Assembly: GCA_020851995.1 (NCBI GenBank)
Contig: JADZBO010000261.1
Coordinates: 18,451 to 82,450, forward strand
From: Burkholderiaceae bacterium
GTDB taxonomy: Bacteria; Pseudomonadota; Gammaproteobacteria; Burkholderiales; Burkholderiaceae_B
Length of the DNA stretch: 64,000 bases
Direction: 5' to 3'
This document shows, one piece after another, positions 29,719 through 64,000 of the stretch. Position numbers and translations under genes: made by a program. The number at the start of each line of letters is the position of its first letter. Within the stretch, counting starts at the first letter, position 1. Under the pieces are notes generated by a model. The model was not told where the DNA came from, searched no databases, and was given only the letters and a program-made list of their open reading frames with translations.

Positions 29719-29820
29719 GGGCCATAGGCGTCATCCATGCGTCTCAATTTCCGTTGGTCGTCGGCAACCTGTCGGACCGTCCACTCGTGAATGGATGCAA
29801 TCGCACTTTAGTGGTGCTCC

Positions 29821-29940
29821 CTGCTGTGGTTCTACCGGCTGTGGTTCTACCGGCTTTGGTACTACCTGCTTTGGTACTACCTGCTTTGGTACTACCTGCT
29901 TTGGTACTACCTGCCTTGGTACTACCGGCTGTTCTACTCC
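29821..29940. repeat. 15-bp tandem repeat, 8 units
   Basis: CTGCTTTGGTACTAC and variants repeated from 29821 to 29940. Confidence 0.95.
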
Positions 29941-30111
29941 CGGCTCACCCCGGAGCGTTAGTAGTTTGCCTCCCGCTGACTGACGCACAGTCACTCGAGG
30001 CTACAATCCTTGTGTCGTGCGCAACCCTGATAGCGTCAGATTCAGAATCGGTTTTCCGCACTGTACAAAATTCATGATGCGGTTTTCCGCATTGCACCAC
30101 ATCGCCAATTC

Positions 30112-31607: not shown

Positions 31608-31620
31608 GATGCCCCATCCC

Positions 31621-31740
31621 CGTCTTTTCCTGAGCCGTCTTTTTCTGAGCCGTCTTTTTCTGAGCCGTCTTTTCCTGAGCCGTCTTTTCCTGAGCCTTCT
31701 TGTACAGAGCCGTCTTGTACATAGCCATCTTGTCCAGAGT
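31621..31740. repeat. 15-bp tandem repeat, 8 units, in divergent intergenic region
   Basis: CGTCTTTTTCTGAGC and variants, 31621-31740, last three units diverged. Confidence 0.95.
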
Positions 31741-31865
31741 CGTCTTGCGACCGCCTTCCGACGCGGCCAGCGCCATCTTAAGCGAATTGCCGGGTCCGCG
31801 TTGACAAACGCCAGGCCGCTGCCTACAGTGCCTGACAACCAATTCAAAGCAATGGGTTCAACCAA

Positions 31866-37083: not shown

Positions 37084-37283
37084 TTCAGTCTTAGGCTGTT
37101 CGTTGAAAAGGGATGGTCGCCACTTCAGTCTTACGATGCTCGTTGAAATTGGGTATTCGTCACTTCAGTCTTACGCTCTTGGTTGAAACGGGGTATTCGT
37201 CACTTCAGTCTTACGCTCTTGGTTGAAACGGGGTGTTCGTCATTTCAGTCTTACGCTATTTGTTGAAAGGACGTGTTCGTCAT
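37084..37283. repeat. 40-bp tandem repeat, 5 units
   Basis: TTCAGTC begins at 37084, 37124, 37164, 37204, 37244; consensus TTCAGTCTTACGCTCTTGGTTGAAACGGGGTATTCGTCAC. Confidence 0.96.
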
Positions 37284-59377: not shown

Positions 59378-59432
59378 TGCATTCCCCCGTGATGTTTTGT
59401 TGTGCCGCGCGGCGACCGATATACTACCGCAC

Positions 59433-61043
59433 ATGATTCGCGTCACAGAACTTCGCCTGCCTGTCGATCACGACGCCCACGCCCTTGAAGCCGCCCTGCT
59501 CGCGCGGCTCGGCCTTCGCAAGGCAGATCTGGTGCAATTCACAGTCTTTCGGCGCAGCCATGACGCGCGCAAGAACAGCGCACTGACATTTACCTATACG
59601 GTCGACGCCGAACTGCACAATGAAGCGCCTGTGCTGGCGCGCTTTTCGCAAGACCCCAAAATTCGCCCAACGCCGCAGATGGATTACCGCCCTGTCGCGG
59701 TCGCCCCAGCGGGATTCGCGCGACGTCCGATTGTCGTGGGCTTCGGCCCCTGCGGAATGTTCGCCGCACTGATCCTCGCGCAGGCGGGCTTTCGCCCAAT
59801 CGTGCTCGAAAGGGGAAAAGCGGTACGCGAACGCACCCAGGACACCTGGGGACTTTGGCGCAAACATACGCTGAACCCGGAATCCAACGTTCAGTTCGGC
59901 GAGGGCGGCGCAGGCACTTTCTCGGACGGAAAGCTGTACAGCCAGATTAAAGACCCGCGGTTTCTCGGGCGCAAGGTCCTGACGGAGTTTGTTCGGGCCG
60001 GCGCACCGGAAGAAATCATGTATGTGGCAAAACCGCATATCGGCACCTTCCGCCTGGTCGGCATGGTCGAGAAAATTCGCCAGGAGATCATCGACCTGGG
60101 CGGTGAGGTGCGCTTTTCACAAAAAGTCACCGGGCTGGATATCCGCGAAGGCGCCATCCGCGGCGTCCTGGTCGAAAGTGGTGAGCACATTGACGGCGAT
60201 CACGTGGTGATGGCGCTGGGTCACAGTGCGCGCGATACCTTTCAGGTGCTGCACGACGCCGGCGTCGCGATGCAAGCGAAGCCCTTTTCGGTGGGTTTTC
60301 GCATCGAGCACCCCCAATCAGTCATCGACCGGGCCCGGCTGGGCCCGCATGCGGGAAATAAACTCATTGGCGCGGCCGATTACAAATTGGTGCACCATGC
60401 GAGCAACGGCCGGTCGGTTTACAGCTTCTGCATGTGCCCTGGCGGCACCGTGGTCGCAGCGGCGTCTGAACCGAACCGCGTCGTCACCAACGGAATGAGC
60501 CAGTATTCGCGGGCCGAACGTAATGCCAACGCCGGGATCGTGGTCGGCGTGACGCCCGAGGACTACCCCGGTGGACCGCTGGCGGGCATCGAATTCCAGC
60601 GCGAGCTTGAATCACGTGCCTTTGAACTTGGGGGCGGTAATTACGACGCGCCCGTCCAGCTCGTCGGCGATTTTCTGGCCGCGAAATCGTCCACTGCGCT
60701 TGGCGAAGTCGCCCCGTCCTACAAACCCGGCGTACGATTGACGGACCTTGCGCAGGCGCTTCCGGCCTACGCCATCGAAGCGATTCGTGAGGCGATTCCA
60801 GCGTTCGAGCGCCAGATCAAGGGCTTTTCGATGCATGACGCCGTGCTGACCGGAGTCGAAACCCGCACATCGTCGCCCCTGCGTATCCCGCGCGGGGACG
60901 ACTACCAGAGCGTCAACGTCCGCGGGCTGTTTCCGGCGGGCGAAGGCGCTGGATATGCGGGGGGAATTCTTTCGGCCGGCGTTGACGGCATCAAGGTCGC
61001 CGAAGCGGTAGCGCTGGATATCCTGAAGCCTTCCCGTCACTGA
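59433..61043 (+). CDS. FAD-dependent dehydrogenase (COG2509-like)
   Basis: RRPIVVGFGPCGMFAALILAQAGFRPIVLERGKAVRERTQDTWGLWRK, SNVQFGEGGAGTFSDGKLYSQIKD, GLFPAGEGAGYAGGILSAGVDGIKVAEAVA. Confidence 0.92.
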   Translation: MIRVTELRLPVDHDAHALEAALLARLGLRKADLVQFTVFRRSHDARKNSALTFTYTVDAELHNEAPVLARFSQDPKIRPTPQMDYRPVAVAPAGFARRPIVVGFGPCGMFAALILAQAGFRPIVLERGKAVRERTQDTWGLWRKHTLNPESNVQFGEGGAGTFSDGKLYSQIKDPRFLGRKVLTEFVRAGAPEEIMYVAKPHIGTFRLVGMVEKIRQEIIDLGGEVRFSQKVTGLDIREGAIRGVLVESGEHIDGDHVVMALGHSARDTFQVLHDAGVAMQAKPFSVGFRIEHPQSVIDRARLGPHAGNKLIGAADYKLVHHASNGRSVYSFCMCPGGTVVAAASEPNRVVTNGMSQYSRAERNANAGIVVGVTPEDYPGGPLAGIEFQRELESRAFELGGGNYDAPVQLVGDFLAAKSSTALGEVAPSYKPGVRLTDLAQALPAYAIEAIREAIPAFERQIKGFSMHDAVLTGVETRTSSPLRIPRGDDYQSVNVRGLFPAGEGAGYAGGILSAGVDGIKVAEAVALDILKPSRH

Positions 61044-61086
61044 ATTTAAGCTTCCCGGCCGTCAATCAGATTGCGGATGCACTATT

Positions 61087-63162
61087 TCAGAGGCTGCGTT
61101 CGCCGGGTGCCGAGCCCGCGGGCGGAGTCAGGTCGTCGCGCATCTGCTGACGCGGGATCAACCCCTTTGTGGTTCCGAAGAACATGTCCCCCGGTGACTG
61201 CACGTTGGGATCCATCGGTCTGTCCGAAAGTTGAGGTGCCGACCGCGGCGCTGGAACCGGGCTTGCGGCGGATTTTTCCGCAGCGGCCCGATCTGCCGCA
61301 GCCTGCGCTTCAGCCTTTTGGATCGCGACCCTTTCAGCGGCAGATTTTTCAGCGGCTGCTTTATCCGCAGCGGTCCTTTCGGCGGCAGCCTTCTCAAGAG
61401 CCGAAGCCCTTTCTGCTGCGGTCTTCTCGGCAGCAGCCCGCTGCGCAGCAGCGCTCTCTGCGGCGGCTTTCTCGGCGGCAACTCTTTCAGCGGCAGCCTT
61501 TTCAGCGGCAGTTCTCTCTGCTGCTCTCTCAGCAGCAGCCCGTTCAGCCGCAGCTCTTTCCGCGGCAGCCTTCTCAGCGGCAGCCCTCTCAGCCGCGGCC
61601 TTCTCAGCAGCAGCTCTCTCTGCTGCTCTCTCAGCAGCAGCCCGTTCAGCCGCAGCTCTTTCCGCAGCAGCCCGTTCAGCCGCAGCCCGTTCAGCCGCAG
61701 CTCTTTCCGCAGCAGCTCTCTCAGCAGCGGCCCTTTCCGCTGCAGCTTTTTCAGCGGCAGCTTTTTCAGCGGCAGCTCTCTCCGCGGCTCTCTCAGCAGC
61801 CGCCTTTTCAGCAGCAGCCTTCTCAGCAGCAGCCTTCTCAGCAGCAGCCTTCTCAGCAGCAGCCTTTTCCGCTGCGGCCTTCTCAGCGGCAGCTCTCTCT
61901 GCTGCTCTCTCTGCTGCTCTCTCAGCAGCAACCCGATCAGCCGCAGCTCTTTCCGCTGCAGCCCTCTCCGCGGCGGCCCTTTCCGCTGCAGCTTTTTCAG
62001 CGGCAGCTCTCTCCGCGGCTCTCTCAGCAGCCGCCCGTTCAGCCGCAGCTCTTTCCGCTGCAGCTCTTTCCGCTGCAACCTTCTCAGCGGCAACCTTCTC
62101 AGCGGCAACCTTCTCAGCGGCAACCTTCTCAGCAGCAGCGCGTTCAGCAGCAGCCCTCTCCGCTGCAGCTCTTTCCGCTGCAACCATCTCAGCGGCAACC
62201 TTCTCAGCAGCAGCCTTTTCAGCAGCAGCGCGTTCAGCAGCAGCCCTCTCCGCTGCAGCTTTTTCGGCAGCAACCCGTTCAGCCGCGGATCTTTCCGCAG
62301 CAGCCCGTTCCGCGGCAGCTCTCTCAGCAGCCGCTTTCTCGGAAGCCGCCTTTTCAGCCGCGATCTTCTCAGCAGCTGCTTTTTCGGCAGCAGCACGCGC
62401 AGGTGCTTCGGACTGAAGCACAGCGGCGCGTTGCGACAACTCGGCCGCCTTGTCGGGTTTGCCGATCAGGCGATAGGTTTGCGATGCGGTGCGGGCAACC
62501 TCGGGGTCGCGTGGTGCAAGGGAAAGTGCGGACTGCAAAGCTGAGTCGGCAAAACGGCCATCGCGCGCCTGTGCGGCGATGACAGCCGCAGCAAGCTGCG
62601 CTTGCGGATTTCTTGGATTGGAAACCGCGAGATCCCGGGCAACATCCATTGCACGCGCAGTATCGCCAGCCATCGCGTAAAGGCGGCCAAGCAACCCAAG
62701 AGCTCCGACATCTTTGGGGCGTTGCGCGAGCAACGGTGTCAGCTTCTCATACGAGGCCGCGAGCTGCCCCCTTTCCTGAAGCGCAGCAGCATCCCAGACG
62801 CCCTGCGAAAACGCCAGGTCGTCGTACTGCTCGCGCTGCGCGGGTGTGAGCTGACGGTCTCGCAGCGCCCTCAGTACCGCGCCACTTTCGACGCCCTGCC
62901 CGGTCTGTTGCAATGCCGCCGCATAGCGCAGTTGCAGATCAGGGTCGCTTGCCCCCTTGCCCATCATCAGTGTGCGCAACTCGCGCAAGGCCCTGGCCGA
63001 CTCCTCGACCCCGGTCACCTGCGCAAACGGCGCAGAACAAATCGCCCAGAGCACAACCAGCGTACATCCCGCAAGCGTACCCTTGCCGGCGCGCCGCGGC
63101 ACGCCCCCCCGCCGGAATGGAGGCGTCGTTCGCCGCAGCAATGCCATTTTTTTCGTCGTCAT
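61087..63162 (-). CDS. TPR-type protein with very long Ala/Glu/Lys/Arg-rich pentapeptide repeat (TolA-like helix)
   Basis: N-terminal hydrophobic segment, TPR-like region ([37 protein letters not shown]), then (AAAE[KR])n, short C-terminal tail. Confidence 0.85.
61255..62400. repeat. ~1.15 kb degenerate 15-bp tandem array encoding (AAAE[K/R])n
   Basis: Repeated GCAGCCTTCTCAGCA-like units on + strand, with several 12-bp units encoding AAER. Confidence 0.95.
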
Positions 63163-63260: not shown

Positions 63261-63911
63261 TCAGCCCGAAAAGTAGCGCTGCGCAAACACAAAAAGCTCC
63301 AGCCTGTTGGCGACTTCAAGTTTCGTGTAGATTGAGGTCAGGTGATTGCGCAGGGTGTGTTCGCTGATTTCAAGCGACTTGGCCGTGTTGCGCAGCGTCT
63401 GACCCTGACCCGAGAGGATCGCGCGAATCACGATGCGTTCCTTGTTGGTCAGCCGATTGATGCGCGCCTCTTCAGGAGTGAGTTCGCGTGCCGGATTGTT
63501 GATGCCGCTGAGGATACGTGACGTCATCTGCCGGTTAAGCCAGAATTCGCCCTCGTGTACCTTGACCATCGCCTTGAACAATTGTTCAGGGTCGGCAACG
63601 GGACCGAGCACGCCTCGCGCGCCCTCGCGAATCCACAGGTCGACCTGAGCCGGTGCATCGGTCGGGCTCATGACGATCACTTTGGCGTCACCCATTTCGA
63701 CCAGTTTGGCGACCGCACCCTCGGACCGCGCATGGGTCATTTCTATGAGAATCACATCGTAATGGTGATCCGGACTGCGAATCAGTTCACAGGCGGTATC
63801 CACATCCGGTGCCAGCCCGGTCACCAGCACCTGACCCGGTCGGTCAATCAGACGCCGCATCGCCGCCTGCATGATGCTGCTGGGATGAATAATCAATACG
63901 CGAAGTACCAT
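63261..63911 (-). CDS. LuxR/NarL-type response regulator with atypical receiver domain
   Basis: C-terminal LTNKERIVIRAILSGQGQTLRNTAKSLEISEHTLRNHLTSIYTKLEVANRLEL HTH; receiver lacks canonical acidic pocket and Asp. Confidence 0.88.
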   Translation of the reverse strand: MVLRVLIIHPSSIMQAAMRRLIDRPGQVLVTGLAPDVDTACELIRSPDHHYDVILIEMTHARSEGAVAKLVEMGDAKVIVMSPTDAPAQVDLWIREGARGVLGPVADPEQLFKAMVKVHEGEFWLNRQMTSRILSGINNPARELTPEEARINRLTNKERIVIRAILSGQGQTLRNTAKSLEISEHTLRNHLTSIYTKLEVANRLELFVFAQRYFSG

Positions 63912-64000
63912 TGCGACTGTCCCCGATAAATAGAAAAACCTCACCACCCGACGCAGGCAACCTGTGCGATCTCCCTACTGATACGGGCAACCGGATAATC

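Follow-up and report, generated by a model that had tools for sequence, protein, structure and literature searches.

A TPR protein with a 374-residue AAAE[K/R] array: probable deletion remnant of an outer-membrane protein of a giant-adhesin type I secretion locus

In the cellulose-export protein BcsC the distal N-terminal TPR docks on BcsB, its inner-membrane-anchored partner, and BcsB and BcsC together (about 70 + 150 Å) are enough to span the periplasm (PMC11379886). The tolA gene of E. coli contains the same 15-bp repeat unit as the array described here; this repeat differs between strains and undergoes RecA-dependent contraction at up to 6.9x10^-5 (PMC3477136). The DUF560 proteins, to which SlipAM belongs, have been surveyed, and the survey's main text makes no mention of FecR (PMC8406197). 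The 64,000-nucleotide stretch of DNA analysed here (the window) has an open reading frame (ORF) that was compared with these systems. The features of the locus are given below, where G016 is the genome of the same genus in which the relative of the ORF was found.

61087 to 63162, minus strand: 691-aa ORF (signal peptide, BcsC-type TPR, AAAE[K/R] rod and tail), uninterrupted; N-terminal part and tail conserved in G016
63022 to 63162, minus strand: N-terminal signal-peptide-like region, residues 1-47, read from the sequence; pattern conserved in G016
62407 to 63009, minus strand: TPR domain, residues 52-252, by identity to the last TPRs of BcsC and by AF2 helices
61273 to 62394, minus strand: AAAE[K/R] array, residues 257-630, a predicted helical rod, by TRF, pentad count, AF2 and shuffles
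61090 to 61272, minus strand: 60-aa tail, conserved with G016; the homology ends 4-5 codons short of the stop codon
63163 to 63206, minus strand: relic of the end of a COG3904-like gene with one nonsense codon; 38 of 44 nt identical to contig C29 of G016
63261 to 63947, minus strand: LuxR/NarL-type response regulator, with orthologues at the type I secretion/adhesin locus
59427 to 61043, plus strand: FAD-dependent oxidoreductase gene, convergent, ending 43 bp from the stop of the ORF

The signal-peptide-like N-terminus, the TPR domain of about 200 aa, the rod and the tail follow each other in this order in a single reading frame. The array, which the initial annotation had placed at 61255-62400, was recovered at nearly the same position. 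Its 374 residues are unbroken and include no Pro or Gly; they are made up of 63 clean pentads (28 AAAER, 19 AAAEK, the remainder V/S/T/I variants), along with six AAER tetrads and a small number of compound units. Altogether 202 Ala, 71 Glu and 73 Lys+Arg were counted, giving a net charge of -1. The longest strictly contiguous run is 239 aa, while the maximum in 2000 residue shuffles was 14 aa. TRF detected a 15-bp period (64.5 copies) and one of 102 bp, the latter corresponding to 34 aa, that is six pentads and one tetrad. Apart from the Lys/Arg alternation and the first Ala of the unit, codon positions 1 and 2 are nearly fixed in the array and position 3 varies. Since the third positions vary while the residues are held, the array appears to be old, with no fresh expansion. 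The 63 pentads are encoded by 39 distinct 15-mers and the longest exact repeat within the array measures 51 bp, thus short-read assembly is unlikely to have collapsed it. The initial suggestion that the array is prone to slippage is sound in principle, since the unit of E. coli tolA is known to vary and contract, and variability of its length within the species is plausible.

The codons of the array are atypical for the genome: GCT accounts for 55% of the Ala codons and AGA/AGG for 31 of the 43 Arg codons, and GC3 is 0.42 in comparison with about 0.7 in the neighbouring genes. The array of G016 has a similar GCT and AGR leaning. Further arrays of 15-bp period were seen in the window at 29812-29945 (about 9 copies) and 31620-31746 (8.5 copies), apparently noncoding and near gene starts, and a 40-bp unit is repeated five times in tandem at 37084-37282, between TTT-receptor-like and acyl-CoA dehydrogenase-like genes. 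The ORFs in other frames over the array (61071-62582 and 61231-62544 on the plus strand, 61158-62396 on the minus strand) were discarded as by-products of the 15-bp period. Rfam gave no structured RNA in the region, and PADLOC gave no defence system.

The hydrophobic N-terminal segment and the TPRs noticed in the initial annotation are both present; the segment, however, has the appearance of a cleavable-type signal peptide (..APFA|QV) and not of a membrane anchor. Its pattern, GKGxLAGCxxxxxWAIxxAxxAQV, is conserved in G016, and the putative signal peptide would be cleaved and the protein exported. AF2 gave TPR helices over residues 52-232 with pLDDT about 90, which run into helices at 236-344, 359-430 and 444-628, and the tail was predicted to be disordered. 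The array is thus predicted to form a long helical rod, and the view of one long, charged, Ala-rich helix following the TPRs in an exported protein is supported as a prediction. The charge power in the array is near zero at periods of 3.3-3.9 residues, therefore a coiled-coil seam is not expected. At i+4 spacing, 63 pairs run from K/R to E and none from E to K/R. A straight helix of 374 residues would measure 56 nm, and the periplasm is much narrower than this. Such a rod would be long enough to cross the periplasm, as had been proposed, but if straight it would overshoot, thus it must be tilted or bent, or else used loosely.

Residues 52-252 are 47-51% identical to the BcsC proteins of the window's own genome (G000) and of G016. 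The match in G000 is the bcs-operon protein on contig C159 (E=1.2e-48, 47% identity), adjoined by BcsA- and BcsB-like genes assigned by reading; the homologue in G016 contains the BCSC_C domain and also aligns with the BcsC family models. Across the family the identity to proteins of BcsC length (1288-1469 aa) is 34-51%, or 34-43% apart from these two. The region matched comprises the last TPRs of BcsC, ahead of the BcsC linker/barrel. Judged from the sequence, the TPR domain is homologous to these last TPRs of the cellulose-export protein. A PDB search with the TPR sequence and model returned generic TPR proteins only, and the tail had no family match in Pfam or NCBIfam.

The search for relatives of the protein spanned 101 relatives together with 32 genomes from the genus and 269 from the family. 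It yielded one relative, in G016, with 78% identity in the TPR domain and 70% in the tail on contig C355 (86% over 44 aa). The tail had no match beyond G016 in the 269 family genomes, and the 32 genomes of the genus contained none besides G016 apart from BcsC-like matches. A wider contig scan returned one copy, on a contig that equals C29 in length (9,183 bp) and is presumably the record of C29 itself; of the plasmid matches one was an annotated BcsC and the other had no listed gene.

In G016 the protein is divided between two contigs. On C29 a TolC-like OMF, a 1334-aa double ABC transporter, HlyD and a gene which we take to be COG3904-like (its product matched no Pfam family) are followed by the TPR-rod gene, which starts 1 nt past the stop of the COG3904-like gene and contains the TPR and 282 array residues before the contig ends. 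C355 carries about 145 array residues that pass into the same tail and on into TPRs and a barrel; next come a FecR gene and the gene of a giant LapA-domain adhesin. The two contigs do not overlap and the array was not assembled through; since in G016 each is the only match to its own end of the protein, we infer that they represent one gene in this genome, which has about 6% contamination. The orthologue of the LuxR regulator (87%) lies beyond a divergent HD-GYP gene on a third contig, C40, which shares a 141-bp overlap with C29. The barrel was modelled with 14 strands (AF2, mean pLDDT 87) and had no Pfam match at E<=0.01. Its top PDB match was E. coli BcsC with a TM of only 0.38, with PelB and porins below. 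Elsewhere in the order, its homologues occur as free-standing TPR-barrel genes with FecR genes after them, and two of these homologues pass the SlipAM Pfam cut-off. Such a pair, a free-standing TPR + SlipAM-type barrel gene with a FecR-domain gene directly after it, recurs across the order (loci L131-L140, genomes G068-G098).

The higher-order period is 102 bp in G000 and 108 bp in G016 and the order of the repeats differs, as would be expected if the helix character and the rough length matter more than the sequence. In comparison with G016, dN/dS was about 0.09-0.26 for the TPR, about 0.06 for the tail and about 0.04-0.07 for the regulator, with dS near saturation. The TPR and the tail thus appear to have diverged from G016 under constraint, and these values would mostly record the history before the deletion proposed below.

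The 44 bp ahead of the ATG of the ORF match the end of the COG3904-like gene of G016 at 38 of 44 positions, whereas the best of 200 shuffles reached 27 of 44 anywhere on the contig. The translation of this stretch has a nonsense codon, in comparison with SCYLNVLRDPWLN* at the end of the G016 gene, and the C-terminus of the COG3904-like protein is conserved in five other species. On this evidence the 44-bp stretch is a deletion scar of a COG3904-like gene. At the 3' end the homology stops right after the tail; 4-5 unrelated codons, the stop codon, 43 bp and the FAD oxidoreductase gene follow. In most relatives read, the downstream neighbour of this oxidoreductase is a GIY-YIG nuclease gene.

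In the window the regulator is followed directly by the TPR-rod gene. Its orthologue stands directly ahead of the OMF and ABC genes in G007, G011, G021 and G023, just upstream of the ABC gene in G028 and near the locus in G016. In these five species (G007, G011, G021, G023 and G028) the COG3904-like gene is followed by the adhesin gene. Five assemblies of the same genus (L119, L120, L121, L122 and L123) end inside the giant adhesin gene, just past the COG3904-like gene. In G000, which is 97.4% complete, the barrel, FecR and COG3904-like genes had no match, and the double ABC transporter had none at E<=1e-60 (6 of 131 candidates scored).

Taken together, the BcsC-derived TPRs, the operon context in G016, the continuation of the tail into a barrel in G016, the 44-bp scar and the genes missing from G000 suggest that the ORF is a deletion remnant, namely the N-terminal half, placed in the periplasm, of a larger outer-membrane protein that was encoded in a giant-adhesin type I secretion locus. 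We give this reading a probability of roughly 0.6. It is limited by the fact that only one relative is known, and on the 3' side a fusion in G016 is as possible as a truncation in G000. The intact form, as in G016, would be exported by its Sec signal peptide, with the BcsC-type TPRs at the N-terminal, membrane-distal end, the AAAE[K/R] helix acting as a stiff spacer, and the second TPR block and the 14-strand SlipAM/BcsC-like barrel anchoring the C-terminus in the outer membrane. Such a protein would likely reach from the outer membrane through the periplasm towards the secretion machinery or its cargo. The repeat number would set the reach of the rod, which would carry the BcsC-type TPR block away from the outer membrane to meet the secretion complex, the periplasmic part of the adhesin or the cell wall, and the intact protein would presumably serve the adhesin. 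In the genome of the window, deletions would have removed the upstream secretion genes and, on the downstream side, the barrel, FecR and the adhesin, so that the regulator and the TPR-rod-tail remained. The lost translational coupling, the decayed upstream sequence, the missing membrane anchor and the missing partners argue against a function of the orphan ORF, which may be non-functional.

On the other hand, the 691 codons are intact and the dN/dS of the TPR and tail is low, thus the ORF may be kept by selection. It could then be a functional stand-alone, soluble periplasmic protein, under the control of the adjacent LuxR-type regulator, in which a long stiff helix bears a TPR adaptor; we consider this unlikely, though it is the likeliest of the alternatives. 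The conservation of the signal-peptide region, the TPR and the tail would agree with it, as would the position of the regulator, which adjoins on the same strand and is well conserved (87% to G016). However, what lies ahead of the start codon is a decayed gene end containing a nonsense codon, so that the coupling seen in G016, where the stop lies 1 nt before the start, is lost. The C-terminus consists of a few non-homologous codons, and no second genome with a barrel-less version was found among the 32 genus and 269 family genomes. A sigma-70-like promoter was not matched in the region, a point of little weight.

A bolder and rather doubtful proposal is that the protein belongs to an undescribed class of outer-membrane proteins (BcsC-type TPR, a rod of 370-430 AAAE[K/R] residues, TPR and a SlipAM-type barrel) working with double-ABC type I secretion and FecR to place or retain a giant adhesin. 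The tunable repeat number would make it a periplasmic ruler or tether, and the form in the window would be a functional soluble derivative.

It is improbable that the contig of this metagenome-assembled genome was misjoined and that the organism carries the full locus. The assembly is a draft of 290 contigs, this contig ends about 50 bp past the regulator and the repeat genes of the locus also break the assemblies of relatives, all of which would agree with a misjoin. But no N is present at the junction, the scar has point differences including the stop codon, which an old deletion would be expected to show, the barrel, FecR and COG3904-like genes were not found anywhere in G000, and an exact repeat of only 51 bp is the longest in the array.

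The resemblance to TolA proposed in the initial annotation holds for the sequence of the array: the AAAEK pentads are common to the ORF, TolA domain II of the family and E. coli tolA (PMC3477136). Kinship with TolA did not stand when the ends and the context were considered. The SHLS motif and N-terminal transmembrane helix of domain I are absent and so is the TonB/TolA fold of domain III at the C-terminus; TPRs derived from BcsC are present instead. Pfam and NCBIfam gave no TolA match for the ORF. The neighbours are the LuxR regulator and the FAD oxidoreductase instead of a tol-pal operon, and the sole relative lies in a type I secretion/adhesin locus and has a C-terminal outer-membrane barrel; a partnership with Tol-Pal is not supported either. 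The other arrays of the family, found by a degenerate AAAEK/R pattern and read in twelve genomes, all belong to genuine TolAs by sequence reading: these have a TM segment, a Pro-rich region and a ..GYAAKVRACV..YRMYD domain at the C-terminus, and their pentads number up to 31. These true TolAs end in ..GYAAKVRACVRP..YRMYD, and the tail in the window differs. The ORF is therefore very improbable as a TolA or TolA-like force transducer between the inner and outer membrane. The TolA domain II arrays of the family (L078-L089) could themselves be length-variable like that of E. coli. A histone H1/HC2-like DNA-binding protein is hardly credible, since the Pfam HC2 (PF07382) match of 74 bits against a cut-off of 40 is confined to the low-complexity array and is an artefact of it, the curated NCBIfam Burkholderiales H1 model stays below its cut-off (62 vs 80), and a net charge of -1, a signal peptide and a TPR domain contradict it.

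TolA-like helical repeat rods thus arise in an unrelated envelope protein as well, therefore an AAAEK array cannot serve as a TolA marker and is easily misnamed, as with the histone-like assignment by Pfam. The copy in the window itself, most likely a remnant, has a modest message. In the intact relative a TPR-barrel/FecR module joins a type I adhesin locus, and this relative offers a natural test of whether the length of a periplasmic rod matters outside Tol-Pal. All the domains are known singly; their combination in G016 was not found named in the libraries or literature searched, and a literature search for SlipAM, FecR, TPR and adhesin together returned nothing.

Among the known systems, the LapA-type giant adhesin type I secretion loci provide the setting of the G016 relative, which lies inside one (OMF, ABC, HlyD and LapA-domain adhesin), whereas of such a locus just the regulator and the TPR-rod remain in the window. 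The five other species with the same locus pass from the COG3904-like gene straight into the adhesin, without TPR-rod-barrel or FecR. With SlipAM/Slam (DUF560, PF04575; type XI secretion) the G016 protein shares the TPR before the barrel, and its barrel aligns with the TPR + barrel proteins of the order, two of which are above the SlipAM cut-off. It differs in that its barrel has no Pfam match of its own, the partner gene is FecR-type and a BcsC-TPR and rod are added at the N-terminus; the 14-strand DUF560 barrel is absent from the window and had no match in G000. The ORF resembles TolA domain II in the AAAEK pentads, the 15-bp DNA repeats and the predicted long periplasmic helix, but it lacks domains I and III and the tol-pal context, and its rod of 374 aa compares with 100-300 aa in a typical TolA domain II (PMC10666116). 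In case of BcsC (PRK11447/PF05420), the ORF has a 374-aa rod after the TPRs where BcsC has its linker, lacks the BCSC_C barrel and is not in the bcs operon, since the bcs genes of G000 are on C159. Nevertheless, its TPR domain appears to be a divergent copy of the last TPRs of BcsC (47% to its own BcsC), and the G016 relative has the same arrangement of N-terminal periplasmic TPRs and a C-terminal barrel, for which E. coli BcsC, at the low TM given above, is the best PDB match.
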